Source of the DNA: Acidaminococcus fermentans DSM 20731
Lineage (GTDB): Bacteria > Bacillota > Negativicutes > Acidaminococcales > Acidaminococcaceae
Length of the DNA stretch: 64,000 nt
Assembly (NCBI RefSeq): GCF_000025305.1
Contig: NC_013740.1
Location: forward strand, 310,001-374,000
Direction of reading: 5' to 3'
The notes below the pieces were generated by a model. That model ran no database searches, was not told the DNA's origin, and saw only the letters and a program-made list of their open reading frames with translations. Positions within the stretch are counted from its first letter, which is position 1, and each line of letters begins with the position of its first letter. A program made the translations under genes and the position numbers. Shown piece after piece: positions 5,130 through 50,430 of the stretch.

Positions 5130-5141
5130 TCAAATAGAAAA

Positions 5142-5250
5142 TGACCATCGGACCCAAGACAGCAGGCGCGCAAGCCTAACGGATTTCCACCTGCCTAGGT
5201 CGGAGTGTTGATAAACATGACCTCCGGCTGACCCGCCGAGAGGTCTTTTC
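5142..5250 (+). promoter_or_regulatory. Ribosomal protein L10 leader
   Basis: The stretch ACAGCAGGCGC, CCTAACGG and CCACCTGCCTAGGT is the conserved core of the Firmicute L10 leader, the mRNA structure bound by the L10-L12 complex for feedback control. It ends in a terminator-like hairpin: GACCTC (5219-5224) pairs with GAGGTC (5240-5245), followed by TTTT. Excess L10 would favour termination before rplJ (known behaviour of the family). Confidence 0.85.
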
Positions 5251-5289
5251 ATTGATTAATAAAAACTGACGCAAGGAGGTGTACTACTG

Positions 5290-6346: not shown

Positions 6347-6375
6347 TTGACAAAATCCCCCCCTCATAGTAGGAT
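6347..6375 (+). promoter_or_regulatory. Promoter of the metNIQ-type operon
   Basis: TTGACA (6347-6352) and TAGGAT (6370-6375) are separated by 17 bases. The T-box leader begins about 15-20 bases downstream. Confidence 0.75.
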
Positions 6376-6392
6376 ATAGGCATATTGAAAAA

Positions 6393-6623
6393 AGCGATGA
6401 GCGGAACCAGTACCTTTGGGAAAGGTCCACAGAGAGTCCGGTGTTGGCTGAGAGCCGGGCGGCGGGAACCTTGGGGAATGCCTCCGTGAGCTGGGCCTCG
6501 AACCTTCAGTAGAGCGCCCCGGGCTGGCAGCCGTTATTTCTGCCGCAAAGGCCGGTCTTTGGATGCCGGTGAATCAGAGTGGAACCACGAACCATCGTCT
6601 CTGGAGAGACGGTGGTTCTTTTT
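6393..6623 (+). ncRNA. T-box leader, specifier best read as TGC (Cys)
   Basis: A T-box senses uncharged tRNA and lets transcription continue. Seen here: K-turn element TGAG (6398-6401), 4-bp helix CGGA/TCCG (6402-6405 with 6483-6486), AGTA loop (6409-6412), AGAGAGTCCGG and GGCTGAGAGCC in stem I, the T-box motif AGTGGAACCACG (6579-6590), and a terminator with stem AACCATCGTCTC/GAGACGGTGGTT and T-run. Aligned with the tRNA-Trp T-box at 22860, the specifier is TGC at 6479-6481; ATG one base earlier is the alternative. The bulge TGGA (6580-6583) fits a U73 discriminator, as in tRNA-Cys, not the A73 of tRNA-Met. Confidence 0.88.
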
Positions 6624-6648
6624 GTTTACTCAGCAAGAGGTGTTGGAT

Positions 6649-7674
6649 TTGATCAAATTTCAGGATATCAGCAAAACGTTTAAAATCGGCAGCGGAGCGG
6701 TACAGGCCCTCCAGCATGTGGACCTGGAAGTGGAAAAAGGAGACATCTTCGGGGTCATCGGTTTCAGCGGGGCCGGGAAATCCACCCTGCTGCGGATGGT
6801 GAATGCCCTGGAGACCCCTACGGAGGGCCATGTGGAGATCGAAGGGCAGATCATCGACCAGCTGTCCCACAATGAACTCCGGAAAGTCCGGAAAAAGATA
6901 GGCATGATCTTCCAGCAGTTCAATCTGCTGGATTCCCGGACTGTTTACGAGAATGTGGCCATCCCCCTGCGGCTGAACCATACGGAACCGGTACAGCTGG
7001 ACCGGACGGTGAAGACTCTGCTCCAGTTTGTGGGACTGGAAGACAAGGCCGGGTCCTATCCCATCCAGCTGTCCGGGGGACAGAAACAGCGGGTGGGCAT
7101 TGCCCGGGCCCTGGCCACCAATCCCAGCATCCTGCTCTGCGACGAAGCCACCAGCGCTCTGGATCCGGAAACCACGGAACAGATCCTGCAGCTGCTCCGG
7201 CGGATCAACCGGGAACTGAAGATCACCATCCTGTTCGTGACCCATCAGATCCAGGTGATCCAGCAGCTGTGCAACAAAGTGGCAGTCATGGAACACGGAC
7301 GGGTGGTGGAACAGGGATCCGTGCTGGAAGTATTCAGCAATCCCCAGCAGGAAATCACCCGGAAGTTTGTCCGGACCGTCATCCCTGACACCATTCCGGA
7401 AAGCATCCAGGAAGATCTGAAAAAAGATCCCCGGCCCTTCAGGCTGCTGAAGCTGCGGTTTCTGGGGCGGCAGGCTTCGGAGGGAGACATTTCCGTACTC
7501 AGCGAGGAAATCGGACTGAAGACCAACATCGTCTTCGCCACAGTGACGGAACTCCAGCAGACCGCCCTGGGCATCTTCATCCTCCAGTGTCTGGATGAAG
7601 GGGACAAGCTGGCCCGGAGCGAGGAATATCTGACCCGGAAGGGAATTCTCTGGAAGGAGGTGAGCCTGTCATGA
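6649..7674 (+). CDS. metN: ABC importer ATPase, MetN family (methionine or cysteine derivative)
   Basis: This is the ATPase of a MetNIQ-type importer on the inner face of the cytoplasmic membrane. The 341-aa protein has Walker A GFSGAGKST (residues 38-46), signature LSGGQKQR (near 141), Walker B ILLCDEAT (near 160), and a C-terminal NIL substrate-sensing domain (about 265-341). Reading from the upstream in-frame ATG at 6559 would run through the T-box, so I start at the TTG at 6649, eight bases after AAGAGG. It overlaps metI by four bases. Homology says D/L-methionine; the T-box suggests cysteine compounds. Confidence 0.92.
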   Translation: MIKFQDISKTFKIGSGAVQALQHVDLEVEKGDIFGVIGFSGAGKSTLLRMVNALETPTEGHVEIEGQIIDQLSHNELRKVRKKIGMIFQQFNLLDSRTVYENVAIPLRLNHTEPVQLDRTVKTLLQFVGLEDKAGSYPIQLSGGQKQRVGIARALATNPSILLCDEATSALDPETTEQILQLLRRINRELKITILFVTHQIQVIQQLCNKVAVMEHGRVVEQGSVLEVFSNPQQEITRKFVRTVIPDTIPESIQEDLKKDPRPFRLLKLRFLGRQASEGDISVLSEEIGLKTNIVFATVTELQQTALGIFILQCLDEGDKLARSEEYLTRKGILWKEVSLS

Positions 7675-8336
7675 TCGAGAAACTGGGAGTTCCCGCGTCC
7701 CAGCTGATCCTGAGCGCGGAACAGACTTTGTACATGGTGTTCGTTTCCCTGGTGGTGGGCTCCATTCTGGCCATTGTCCTGGCCATGATCCTGGTGCTGA
7801 CCAACGATAATGGGATCCTCAAGAACCGGCCCATCTACCTGGTGCTGAACACCATCATCAACATCATCCGAAGCGTACCCTTCATCATCCTGATGGTATT
7901 CATCATGCCGCTGACCAAGACCATTGTGGGAACCCGGATCGGGACCACCGCAGCCCTGATCCCGCTGATTGTGTTCATCACACCGTATCTCACCCGGCTG
8001 TTCGAGAATTCCATCCTGGATGTGAACCGGGGGATTGTGGAAGCCGCCCAGGCCATGGGGGCCTCCTATTTTGAAATCGTCTGGTACTTCCTGCTGCCGG
8101 AGGCCAAGGGATCCCTGATCCTGTCCATCACCACCGGTACCATCGGGCTGATCGGCGCCACGGCCATGGCCGGTGCCATCGGCGCCGGAGGCGTGGGGGA
8201 CCTGGCTCTGACCTACGGGTATGAACGGATGAACACACCGCTGATGCTGTTTACCGTGGTGGTGCTGATCATCTTTGTCCAGATCATCCAGACCGTGGGC
8301 AATCACTTTGCTTATAAAACCAGAAATCATGGTTAA
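7671..8336 (+). CDS. metI: ABC importer permease, MetI family
   Basis: This is the membrane subunit of the MetNIQ-type importer. The 221-aa protein has about five to six spans and the EAAQAMGAS coupling loop (near residues 123-131) that contacts the ATPase. Its ATG overlaps the metN stop (ATGA), typical of translational coupling. Substrate as discussed for metN. Confidence 0.93.
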   Translation: MIEKLGVPASQLILSAEQTLYMVFVSLVVGSILAIVLAMILVLTNDNGILKNRPIYLVLNTIINIIRSVPFIILMVFIMPLTKTIVGTRIGTTAALIPLIVFITPYLTRLFENSILDVNRGIVEAAQAMGASYFEIVWYFLLPEAKGSLILSITTGTIGLIGATAMAGAIGAGGVGDLALTYGYERMNTPLMLFTVVVLIIFVQIIQTVGNHFAYKTRNHG

Positions 8337-8357
8337 TTATTTTGAGGGGGTAATACA

Positions 8358-9209
8358 ATGAATACGGGAAAACTGAAAAAATGGCTGGTAATCGGATTGG
8401 CAGCGGTGATGACCACCGCACTGGTGGCAGGCTGCGGAAGTGATTCCGGCAAAAGTACGGACAAGGGCGCTTCCACCAAAAAGGAACTGAAGTACAGCAA
8501 GTCCCAGGGACCGTACTCCGATCTGTTTGAAAAAGGCGTAAAGCCCATCCTGGAAAAGAAGGGTTACAAATTCGCAGGCAAGGATATGTCCGATCTGCTC
8601 CAGGCTGATATTGCCCTGAACGAAGGGGAAGTGGACTTCAACGTGGAACAGCATACGGCCTATATGGAAAACTTCAACAAGAAGCAGGGGGGCCATCTGG
8701 CGGCCATCACCCCCATTCCCACCGTTCCCGCCGGGATCTTCGCCGGGTCCAAGACCAGTCTGGATCAGGTGGCTGACGGGGATACGGTAGCCGTTCCCAA
8801 TGACGCGTCCAATACGGCCCGTGCCTATGCACTGCTGCAAAAGGCCGGCTGGATCAAACTGGATCCCAAGAAGGACCTGTCCACGGTGACCCAGCAGGAT
8901 ATCATCGAAAATCCCCATCACCTGAAATTCACGGAAATGAAATCCCTGAACATCCCGGCTGTCCGGAATGACTTCTCCTACATTGTGATCACCGGCGCCA
9001 TCATCTACAACGCCAAGATCGATCCGGCCACGGCCCTGATGAAGGAAGACATCCTGCTGCACCTGATGCTGCAGCTGGTGGTCCAGGACAAGAACAAGGA
9101 TGCCCAGTGGGCCAAGGATATTGCAGATGCCTACAAATCTGCGGAATTCCAGGAATACATGAAGAAAAACAACAAGGGTCTGTGGTTCGACCCCAATGCC
9201 AAGAAATAA
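8358..9209 (+). CDS. metQ: Substrate-binding lipoprotein, MetQ/NlpA family
   Basis: This is the extracytoplasmic binding protein of the importer. It has a signal peptide with lipobox LVAGC and predicted lipidated C26, then the NlpA-type fold (about residues 40-283). The KYSKSQGPYSDLFEKGVKPIL segment and the NDASNTARAYALLQKAGWIKL segment are typical of the family. Length (283 aa) is usual. The start follows GAGGGGG. It lies 21 bases after metI in the same operon. Confidence 0.93.
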   Translation: MNTGKLKKWLVIGLAAVMTTALVAGCGSDSGKSTDKGASTKKELKYSKSQGPYSDLFEKGVKPILEKKGYKFAGKDMSDLLQADIALNEGEVDFNVEQHTAYMENFNKKQGGHLAAITPIPTVPAGIFAGSKTSLDQVADGDTVAVPNDASNTARAYALLQKAGWIKLDPKKDLSTVTQQDIIENPHHLKFTEMKSLNIPAVRNDFSYIVITGAIIYNAKIDPATALMKEDILLHLMLQLVVQDKNKDAQWAKDIADAYKSAEFQEYMKKNNKGLWFDPNAKK

Positions 9210-9274
9210 TATGGTGCAGAAAAACCCCGGAGGCCCAGGCTGATGGGGTTTCCTGCTGAAAAGGAGACTTTGTG

Positions 9275-10450
9275 ATGGACGTAAAAGAACGGGTGGCAGC
9301 CCTTCAGCCGGAACTGGTCCGGCTGCGCCGCCATTTTCATGAAAAACCGGAACGGTCCTGGGAAGAATTCCAGACCCAGAAGGCCATTGAATCCTATCTG
9401 GATGCGCTGGGGATCCCCTATGTGGAATCCTGCAAATCCGGGGTGATCGCCACCCTGAAGGGACCCCACGCCTCGGACCGGATCATCGGAATCCGGGCGG
9501 ACATCGATGCCCTGCCCATTACGGAACTGGGGGATCCGGCGTACAAATCCCAGAACCCGGGAACCATGCATGCCTGCGGCCATGATACCCATATCACCAT
9601 CCTGCTGGGGGCTGCGAAGGTGCTGGCAGCCATGAAGGACCAGCTGACGGTGACCGTTCGGTTCCTGTTCCAGCCGGCGGAAGAGGAAATTGCCAACAGC
9701 GGGGCCGCCTACATGAAGGAAGAACCCCTGGTGAAGGAATGCGACCGGCTCATCGCCCTCCATATCTGGAGCAAGATCCCGGCAGGCTGGGCCTCTCTCC
9801 GGTACGGTCCGGTGATGAGCGCAGCGGATACTTTTGACGTGACGGTGGAAGGCAGGGGAGGCCATGGAGCCCTGCCCCATCAGACCGTGGATCCCATTGT
9901 GGCCGGGGCTGAATTCGTAACGGCCCTCCAGACCGTAGTGAGCCGGGAAGTGAATCCCCTGGAACCGGCGGTGCTCAGCATCACCCAGTTCCAGGGCGGC
10001 ACCACCAGTAATGTGATCCCTGGAGAAGCCCATCTGGCCGGTACGGCACGGACGTTCAGCAAGGAACTCCGGGATGCCTATCCCGGGATCCTGGAACGGG
10101 TGGCCCAGGGAGTGAGTACGGCCACCCGGGCCAAACTGCGGACCGTGTATCATTTCGGACCGCCGCCCATGATCAACGACAAAGCCTGTGTGGATACGGG
10201 CCGGAAAGCCTGCGCCAAAGTCTTTGCCCCGGACAAGCTGGTGGACTGGGAACTCCAGATGGGGGGAGAAGATTTCGCCAAGTACAGCAATCCCAAATGC
10301 CTGCTGCTGCTGGGCGGGGGCTTTGCTGACGAAGACCGCCGGTATCCCCAGCACAGCCCCTATTTCGACATCGATGAAAAGGCCCTGGGCCTGGGGGTGG
10401 AATACTTCGTCCAGTATGTGCTGGAATGGGAGAAGGAATTGAAGAAATAA
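9275..10450 (+). CDS. M20 family metal-dependent amidohydrolase
   Basis: This belongs to the M20 amidohydrolases that remove acyl groups from amino acids (relatives of hippurate hydrolase and YxeP/SndA). Motifs: GIRADIDALPI (near residue 68), MHACGHDTH (near 98) and FQPAEE (near 132), the binuclear metal site and catalytic glutamates. The 391-aa length is normal. ATG at 9275 lies eight bases after AAGGAG. No T-run terminator separates it from metQ, so it may be the fourth gene of that operon. An N-acyl-cysteine or N-acyl-methionine derivative would fit as substrate; this is inference. Confidence 0.85.
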   Translation: MDVKERVAALQPELVRLRRHFHEKPERSWEEFQTQKAIESYLDALGIPYVESCKSGVIATLKGPHASDRIIGIRADIDALPITELGDPAYKSQNPGTMHACGHDTHITILLGAAKVLAAMKDQLTVTVRFLFQPAEEEIANSGAAYMKEEPLVKECDRLIALHIWSKIPAGWASLRYGPVMSAADTFDVTVEGRGGHGALPHQTVDPIVAGAEFVTALQTVVSREVNPLEPAVLSITQFQGGTTSNVIPGEAHLAGTARTFSKELRDAYPGILERVAQGVSTATRAKLRTVYHFGPPPMINDKACVDTGRKACAKVFAPDKLVDWELQMGGEDFAKYSNPKCLLLLGGGFADEDRRYPQHSPYFDIDEKALGLGVEYFVQYVLEWEKELKK

Positions 10451-22859: not shown

Positions 22860-23130
22860 ATTCAATACGAACCAGAAACCTTTGAGGTGGAGATAACGCC
22901 AGAAAATGTGCGCACAGAGAGTCCGGAAAGCTGAGAGCCGGATCGTGGCAGTCTGACAAATGGACCACTGAGGGCGCGATGAAATCTTCGGAAAGTATCC
23001 CGCGACGCAGCACCGACGTTACCGGTGAGGAATGTGTTGGCATTCTGCTTGAGGTGTGGGGCTCCGGCTCCATTACAGGGTGGTACCGCAGGTTATGACA
23101 CCTGTCCTTGTAGGAGGACAGGTGTTTTTT
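22860..23130 (+). ncRNA. T-box leader with Trp specifier (TGG)
   Basis: Stem I shows TTTGAGGTGG facing CCACTGAGG, AGAGAGTCCGG, GCTGAGAGCC and the specifier TGG at 22961-22963 in ACAAATGGACCAC. The T-box motif AGGGTGGTACCGC is at 23077-23089. The terminator at 23098-23130 has stem ACACCTGTCC/GGACAGGTGT plus a T-run. Uncharged tRNA-Trp should stabilise the antiterminator and switch on trpEGDCFBA. Confidence 0.93.
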
Positions 23131-50265: not shown

Positions 50266-50287
50266 TACAAAGCTAAATCGAATACAG

Positions 50288-50430
50288 CTCATCAAGAGTG
50301 GCGGAGGGAATGGCCCTATGAAACCACAGCAACCATGGCCTGTGGCCAACGGTGCTAATTCCTGCAATGCGGTTTGTCGATTGTAAGATGAGAGTCCTAT
50401 AAGTGCTCTCATTTTGGGAGTATTTTTTTT
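50288..50430 (+). ncRNA. SAM-I riboswitch (S box) with terminator
   Basis: The aptamer has P1 CTCATC (50288-50293) with GATGAG (50387-50392), the conserved AAGAGTGGCGGAGGGA, GCAACC and GGTGCTAATTCC. Expression platform: ATGAGAG (50388-50394) can pair with CTCTCAT (50406-50412) as antiterminator. When SAM holds P1 closed, TGCTCTC (50404-50410) pairs with GGGAGTA (50416-50422) ahead of eight T, ending transcription before metK. Confidence 0.95.

Follow-up and report, generated by a model that had tools for sequence, protein, structure and literature searches.

T-box leaders specific for cysteine transfer RNA (tRNA) have been described in Clostridium perfringens, where they precede cysK, cysP1, cysP2, and ubiG and where, according to the published account, expression shows control of genes for cysteine uptake and synthesis (PMC2940859). 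In Lactobacillus paracasei, one Cys T-box (TGC) is reported before an ATP-binding cassette (ABC) importer (PMC6004538), and in Streptococcus pneumoniae the genes of a MetQ protein, an M20 peptidase, an ATPase, and a permease are grouped in spd_0150-0154 (PMC5131005). Here we analyzed a stretch of 64,000 nucleotides (the window) from Acidaminococcus fermentans DSM 20731 (NC_013740.1, positions 310,001 to 374,000), part of a genome of 2,329,769 bp, in which a T-box leader precedes a four-gene operon, metN-metI-metQ-M20. The leader shares with the Cys T-boxes of C. perfringens the TGC specifier, the AGAGTGGAACC core, and a terminator downstream, but the transporters named in that account are Na+-H+/amino acid symporters and not MetNIQ-type ABC importers. 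Likewise, L. paracasei has its Cys T-box before a polar-amino-acid importer, while its metQ and metQ-metN-metP are described as being under Met T-boxes (ATG). The gene grouping of S. pneumoniae is the same in kind, but its response to cysteine is attributed to the CmbR protein. The importer itself resembles MetNIQ of E. coli and Neisseria, with a MetN carrying a NIL domain, a MetI, and a MetQ/NlpA lipoprotein. Among the openly licensed papers listed by our literature searches, none described a MetNIQ-type operon behind a Cys T-box; the entries of TBDB lay outside these searches, and the leader may already be listed there as Cys. On the evidence below, we consider it probable that a tRNA-Cys T-box attenuates the operon, that the importer most likely serves for a cysteine source, and that the M20 enzyme releases the amino acid.

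The operon is placed downstream of rplL on the forward strand, in the order promoter-like site, T-box, terminator hairpin, and four genes. A sigma-70-like promoter (TTGACA-17-TAGGAT, 6347-6375) lies immediately 5′ of the T-box; it has 10/12 matches in a consensus scan that found one site against 0.2 expected. The covariance model RF00230 matched positions 6388-6605 over its full length (model 1-219) with 96.4 bits against a gathering score of 93 (E 6.3e-20). The leader is of the transcription-terminating type: the T-box core AGAGUGGAACC (6576-6586) holds a UGGN bulge, UGGA at 6580-6583, whose predicted partner, from the sequence and the discriminator bases, is UCCA-3′ of tRNA-Cys, and an intrinsic terminator hairpin with a T tail (6589-6618, by folding and scan) overlaps the 3′ part of the antiterminator. 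The terminator region 6568-6622 folds with −24.6 kcal/mol (z −3.41). There follow a MetN-like ATPase with a NIL domain (6649-7674, TTG start proposed; PF00005, PF09383), a MetI-like permease (7671-8336; PF00528), a MetQ/NlpA-like lipoprotein (8358-9209; PF03180, 180 bits vs. a gathering score of 27), and an M20 amidohydrolase (9272-10450; TIGR01891, 328.2 bits vs. a cut-off of 153.75).

The specifier loop contains three overlapping codons, AUG (Met), UGC (Cys), and GCC (Ala). In the cmscan alignment the loop reads GGAA-UGC-C and is closed by a 4-bp helix, in which UCCG (6483-6486) pairs with CGGA (6402-6405, between the kink-turn [K-turn] and the loop); UGAG of the K-turn comes next. The UGC at 6479-6481 occupies the Rfam specifier columns and stands at the first-choice position of TBDB, two to four bases from the 3′ end of the specifier loop, in a frame given there as codon, one base, helix (PMC7778990). 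A preliminary description of the window had chosen the same frame, using as a ruler the Trp T-box at 22873-23112 (56.2 bits, below gathering), which does read TGG-A-CCAC, and its positions and bases for TGC, C 6482, TCCG, and TGGA are exact; the Rfam alignment places UGC, and not the ATG at 6478-6480, in the specifier columns. We applied the rule of codon, one base, and 4-bp helix to the T-boxes of the genome, of which there were 17 at E ≤ 0.1; 16 were tabulated, and L017 (glyQS), with a truncated stem I, was left out. The motif parser used for this also yielded low-scoring matches without T-box structure, failed to detect L003 and L015, and read L002, L011, and L017 incorrectly, so the cmscan alignments were used for L002, L003, L011, and L015. 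The rule was correct in 12/12 T-boxes for which the amino acid can be told from the gene downstream, these genes being named from a reading of the open reading frames (ORFs) and not from library searches: ilvB (Leu), ilvC (Ile), valS (Val), pheS (Phe), metA (Met), cysE-cysK (Cys), leuA (Leu), serA (Ser), thrS (Thr), ileS (Ile), leuC (Leu), and trpE (Trp).

The bulge provided a second and separate test. Among 50 tRNA genes that were read, of 60 tRNA matches, U73 occurs only in those for Cys (two genes), Gly, and Thr; both tRNA-Cys genes can therefore pair with UGGA through their U73, while all three CAU tRNAs found, including the elongator tRNA-Met of the window to which the preliminary description had ascribed A73, and also tRNA-Ala, have A73. 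The bulge base and the discriminator of the predicted tRNA form a Watson-Crick pair in 15/16 T-boxes of the genome, and the remaining one, trpE, has a U-G wobble, a known exception (PMC7778990). When codon, bulge, and discriminator were combined, Cys was the sole survivor of the three frames of the leader.

Other leaders of the genome and the family served as controls. The cysE-cysK T-box of the same genome has the identical loop GGAAUGCC and the bulge UGGA, and its metA T-box has AUG-G and UGGU. At the metA loci of the family a T-box could be parsed in 21/30, every one with AUG then G and a UGGU bulge; at the cysE loci it could be parsed in 5/23, all five within the genus and every one UGC-C with UGGA. 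The pattern GAATGCCTTTGNGAGC was present in 25 of 300 genomes of the class (Negativicutes), and the reversed control gave none among the matches listed. It also flags the cysE and cysK leaders of Megasphaera-like genomes, and in the 20 loci that we read beyond the own genus and g57 the downstream genes include cysE, cysK, the MetNIQ/M20 operon, and a glutathione-transferase-like gene; at the locus in genome G210, a uroporphyrinogen decarboxylase (URO-D)-like gene with a cystine-type ABC importer comes next. Three of the matches (L241-L243) lacked a T-box core, and another (L246) showed no clear gene downstream.

To follow the leader through related operons, we searched for the MetQ-like protein in 59 genomes of the family (15 with a match at 1e-40), in the 300 genomes of the class (50 at 1e-70), and in named genomes (18 loci). 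Once identical leaders were removed, 24 T-boxes at 22 loci remained before related operons, with L079 included and with a false second core in L074, the L114 match (no T-box by cmscan), the L163 T-box, and L168 set aside. These leaders come from the genus, from genus g17 of the same family, from genera g24 and g83 (Megasphaera-named), from g57, and from one contig of a metagenome-assembled genome (MAG), L122. UGC was kept in 24/24. The base 3′ of it is C in 21 and U, A, and G once each; A precedes it in 23 leaders, and L081 (CAAG-UGC-A) has G there and therefore no AUG. The bulge base is A in 23/24 leaders and G in L120, where it would wobble with U73. L168, a 25th leader seen by eye, has UGC-C but a degenerate core, AGTGTAACC. 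Across the 23 distinct leaders, 92/92 cells of the specifier-flanking helix pair, 22 of them with two-sided changes (CG/AU/AU/AU, CG/GC/GC/AU, and one GC/GC/AU/AU), and in 500 shuffles the percentage paired, the count of two-sided cells, and the covariation score were never reached. Slid versions of the helix pair in only 16-52%. The helix thus has covariation support that fixes the specifier frame, though perhaps from few events, because the leader sequences are related.

Some of the related loci deserve separate mention. In genomes G005 and G006 of the genus, two units of promoter-like site, Cys T-box, and terminator stand in tandem before metN (L076, minus strand, 1391 and 1797; L077, 1396 and 1744). 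The contig L122 (553-782) carries a UGC T-box before M20-MetN-MetI-MetQ and is labelled as an Aeromonadales MAG, which points to misbinning or transfer, and a Succinivibrio MAG contig (L123) carries the same importer (67% MetQ identity) and an M20 gene, adjoining a second MetN-MetI pair, with no T-box found. In L163 (87-314, genome G121) a T-box of 119.7 bits reading CTC, with a UGGU bulge, lies 2.5 kb upstream of metN.

The binding protein differs from methionine-binding MetQ where it matters for the ligand. At the positions of Neisseria MetQ Y81, F98, H100, Y103, R156, N213, and N238, which we mapped with the printed phmmer alignment and MAFFT, it has L80, E97, H99, Y102, R155, T212, and M237 or L238, so that four of the seven residues of the methionine-contact set Y, F, H, Y, R, N, N are changed. 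In Neisseria, the N238A exchange raises the Kd for L-Met from 0.2 nM to 78 μM, as reported for that protein (>1e5-fold weaker; PMC6739813). The pocket L-E-H-Y-R-T-L is common to 55/55 ORFs at ≥67% identity (42 distinct sequences); among named genomes the nearest protein is from A. fermentans (97% identity). MetQ of E. coli, the MetQ behind a SAM (S-adenosylmethionine) riboswitch of the A. fermentans genome (L088), and L086 of that genome have Y-F-H-Y/F-R-N plus the Asn in PYVN/PYAN. The NCBIfam cut-offs for the methionine importer were missed by MetN (TIGR02314, 354.4 vs. 499.7 bits), MetI (PRK10782, 171 vs. 212), and MetQ (95.8 vs. 374), but these scores say little alone, because the canonical-pocket MetQ of L088, with 247.7 bits, also falls under the MetQ cut-off. 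Structure prediction of the protein with 17 relatives was poor (mean predicted local distance difference test [pLDDT] 63.6, predicted template modeling score [pTM] 0.50), and the pocket mapping therefore rests on sequence alignment. For the M20 enzyme the nearest solved structure is B. subtilis YxeP (1ysj, E 3.8e-74); the comparison with YxeP in the preliminary description holds that far, and likeness in substrate is putative.

Two further divergent pockets were seen among MetQ proteins. A branch at 46-51% identity (L081-L085) has the pocket S-D-H/N-W-R-R-R, and a UGC T-box precedes its operon in genome G003 (L081). In two genomes of the family, a tRNA-Cys gene (L084, 173-246; L085, 452-525) lies directly 5′ of a MetQ-M20-MetQ-MetN-MetI cluster, which in L085 is followed by a pyridoxal phosphate (PLP) enzyme of Cys/Met metabolism; the MetQ adjoining the tRNA-Cys gene has the pocket Y-Y-H-F-R-T-V in both.

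The other regulators of the genome suggest a division of labour. Three SAM riboswitches score above gathering and a fourth match falls below. One precedes a second MetN-MetI pair, with 47% and 51% identity (L050, L269), one precedes the canonical-pocket MetQ of L088, which has another M20 gene downstream, and a SAM-I riboswitch at window positions 50286-50394 precedes an ORF that we read as metK, by inspection and not by library search. A Met T-box stands before metA, and Cys T-boxes stand before cysE-cysK and the operon studied here. Because of these assignments, the operon is unlikely to be the main methionine importer of the cell. Two other genomes of the genus Acidaminococcus (G001 and G002) keep the T-box and the importer and gave no match to CysE (E ≤ 1e-50) or CysK (E ≤ 1e-30), thresholds that distant enzymes would escape; this would be predicted for cells that obtain their cysteine by uptake. 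G005 had no CysE match and a CysK-like match of only 42%, and G007 (85% complete) had no match to CysE, CysK, or a MetQ of the studied type.

Several observations weigh against our reading of the locus. By itself, the comparison of bulge and discriminator does not generally settle the specificity, since for trpE it favours a shifted AUG (Met) frame, and wobble permits a shifted frame in several leaders of the genome. The base 3′ of the specifier is C instead of the usual A, yet the ilvC (Ile) leader also has C. Among the covariation shuffles, 14/500 reach the number of two-sided pairs and 500/500 the number of further pair types. The N238 position carries an alignment uncertainty of one residue (M237 or L238), and an altered pocket also occurs outside the Cys-linked genes, as L087, a fourth MetQ of the genome, has the pocket Y-Y-H-F-R-T-V and no T-box among the 17. 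The link between T-box and importer is not universal either, because we detected no T-box ahead of the operon for 20 relatives within the same MetQ branch (L111, L113-L116, L119, L123, L152, L154, L157, L158, L160-L163, L165, L166, L176-L178; 18 by cmscan, L115 and L116 by motif search only), which include Selenomonas, Pectinatus, Veillonella, and Succinivibrio genomes; L112/L155 and L159 were too short for a call. Finally, the cysteine-responsive MetQ-M20-MetNI locus of S. pneumoniae is described as a methionine importer in the account cited above (PMC5131005).

This last point bears on the main rival explanation, in which the T-box is Cys-specific and the importer carries methionine, or homocysteine or cystathionine, for conversion to cysteine. 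The homology of the MetNIQ family favours such a cargo, and in C. perfringens the ubiG operon, which serves to convert methionine to cysteine, is described as lying behind a Cys T-box (PMC2940859). Nevertheless, we give this explanation only a small chance, since both asparagines that hold the ligand backbone in Neisseria MetQ are replaced here, the loss of N238 alone having the drastic effect on L-Met affinity reported for N238A (PMC6739813), and since SAM riboswitches precede a second MetNI and a canonical-pocket MetQ of this genome. The other explanations concern the leader. That it should be methionine-specific (AUG 6478-6480) or alanine-specific (GCC) is suggested by the gene names given by homology and by the presence of these codons one base upstream and one base downstream in the loop, but both frames fail because the CAU and Ala tRNAs have A73 whereas UGGA requires U73; the frame rule and the metA and cysE controls also oppose them, and an Ala frame would read GCU in L118, GCA in L081, and GCG in L122, while UGC stays. 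We rejected both frames on these grounds and regard them as the least credible of the explanations considered. Hardly better is the idea that the overlapping AUG/UGC lets the leader answer both tRNA-Met and tRNA-Cys: AUGC is present in the loop, and the authors of TBDB consider alternative frames and the possibility that one T-box responds to several tRNAs (PMC7778990), but A73 of all three CAU tRNAs cannot pair with the UGGA bulge, L081 has GUGC without AUG, and the A before UGC can be taken to complete the GAA common in specifier loops. Cysteine control of the operon by a Cys-specific T-box is thus, as far as sequence can tell, nearly certain, and the preference of the preliminary description for Cys over Met is borne out by the frame, the bulge and discriminator, the identity with cysE-cysK, the contrast with metA, and the conservation of UGC, including in a leader without AUG. 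Its proposal that the importer and the M20 enzyme may act on cysteine compounds, at first a guess, gained backing from the lost methionine contacts and from the SAM-riboswitch MetNI and MetQ.

A few elements outside the operon were noted in passing. An L10-type ribosomal protein leader at window positions 5135-5259 scores 42.3 bits, slightly below the gathering score of 44. Elsewhere in the genome, Ile-type T-boxes (AUC) precede two transporter-like ORFs (L002, L004), which we take to resemble transporters of the bile-acid-sodium-symporter family, and a Leu-type T-box (CUG) precedes a transporter-like ORF (L008, G000:C1 1112790-1113035), presumably YkvI-like. In G210, tandem Cys T-boxes with the cores AGTGGAACC and AGTGGAATC precede a URO-D/MtaA-like gene and an ABC importer (L265, 501-5200), for the ATPase of which cystine TcyN is the top-scoring model, at a score under the cut-off. 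The same genome has one Cys T-box upstream of an ORF like short-chain dehydrogenases/reductases (SDR), with a LarE gene further down, and another before an O-acetylhomoserine sulfhydrylase gene (L266). In L082 (191-427, minus strand) and L173 (G047), a T-box reading GAAG-UGC-C precedes a set of URO-D, B12-binding, and MtmB-family genes; its frame and the Cys discriminator disagree because its bulge is UGGU.

From established T-box biology, we would expect the locus to work as follows. Under cysteine shortage, the anticodon of uncharged tRNA-Cys(GCA) would pair with UGC at 6479-6481 and its 3′ end UCCA with the UGGA bulge at 6580-6583; the antiterminator would be held, the terminator at 6589-6618 prevented, and metN-metI-metQ-M20 transcribed. 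The ABC importer, of a MetNIQ branch without the methionine pocket in its binding protein, would then bring in what is likely a cysteine source, be it cystine or an N-acyl or peptide form. Less certain is that the M20 amidohydrolase frees the amino acid from the acyl or peptide form, a role that membership in TIGR01891 and the likeness to YxeP fit and do not prove. More broadly, and with less confidence than for the locus itself, we lean toward the view that a Negativicutes branch of MetNIQ/NlpA with the pocket L-E-H-Y-R-T-L switched from methionine to a cysteine source and forms with M20 a salvage unit under a tRNA-Cys T-box, while the paralogous MetNI and MetQ-M20, under SAM riboswitches, take up methionine.

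The leader itself is an ordinary T-box, and what is new is the Cys-linked branch of MetNIQ. By homology alone, the genes of this branch in Acidaminococcus, Megasphaera, Veillonella, and Selenomonas would be named methionine importers, and the T-box and the pocket argue otherwise. In G001 and G002, the T-box importer may be the cysteine supply of the cell. The presence within one genome of a Cys T-box MetNIQ-M20 and of a SAM-riboswitch MetNI and MetQ-M20 offers a pair suited to direct study of a substrate change, and renaming the branch would alter the auxotrophies, and the exchange of sulfur, that are predicted for anaerobic communities.

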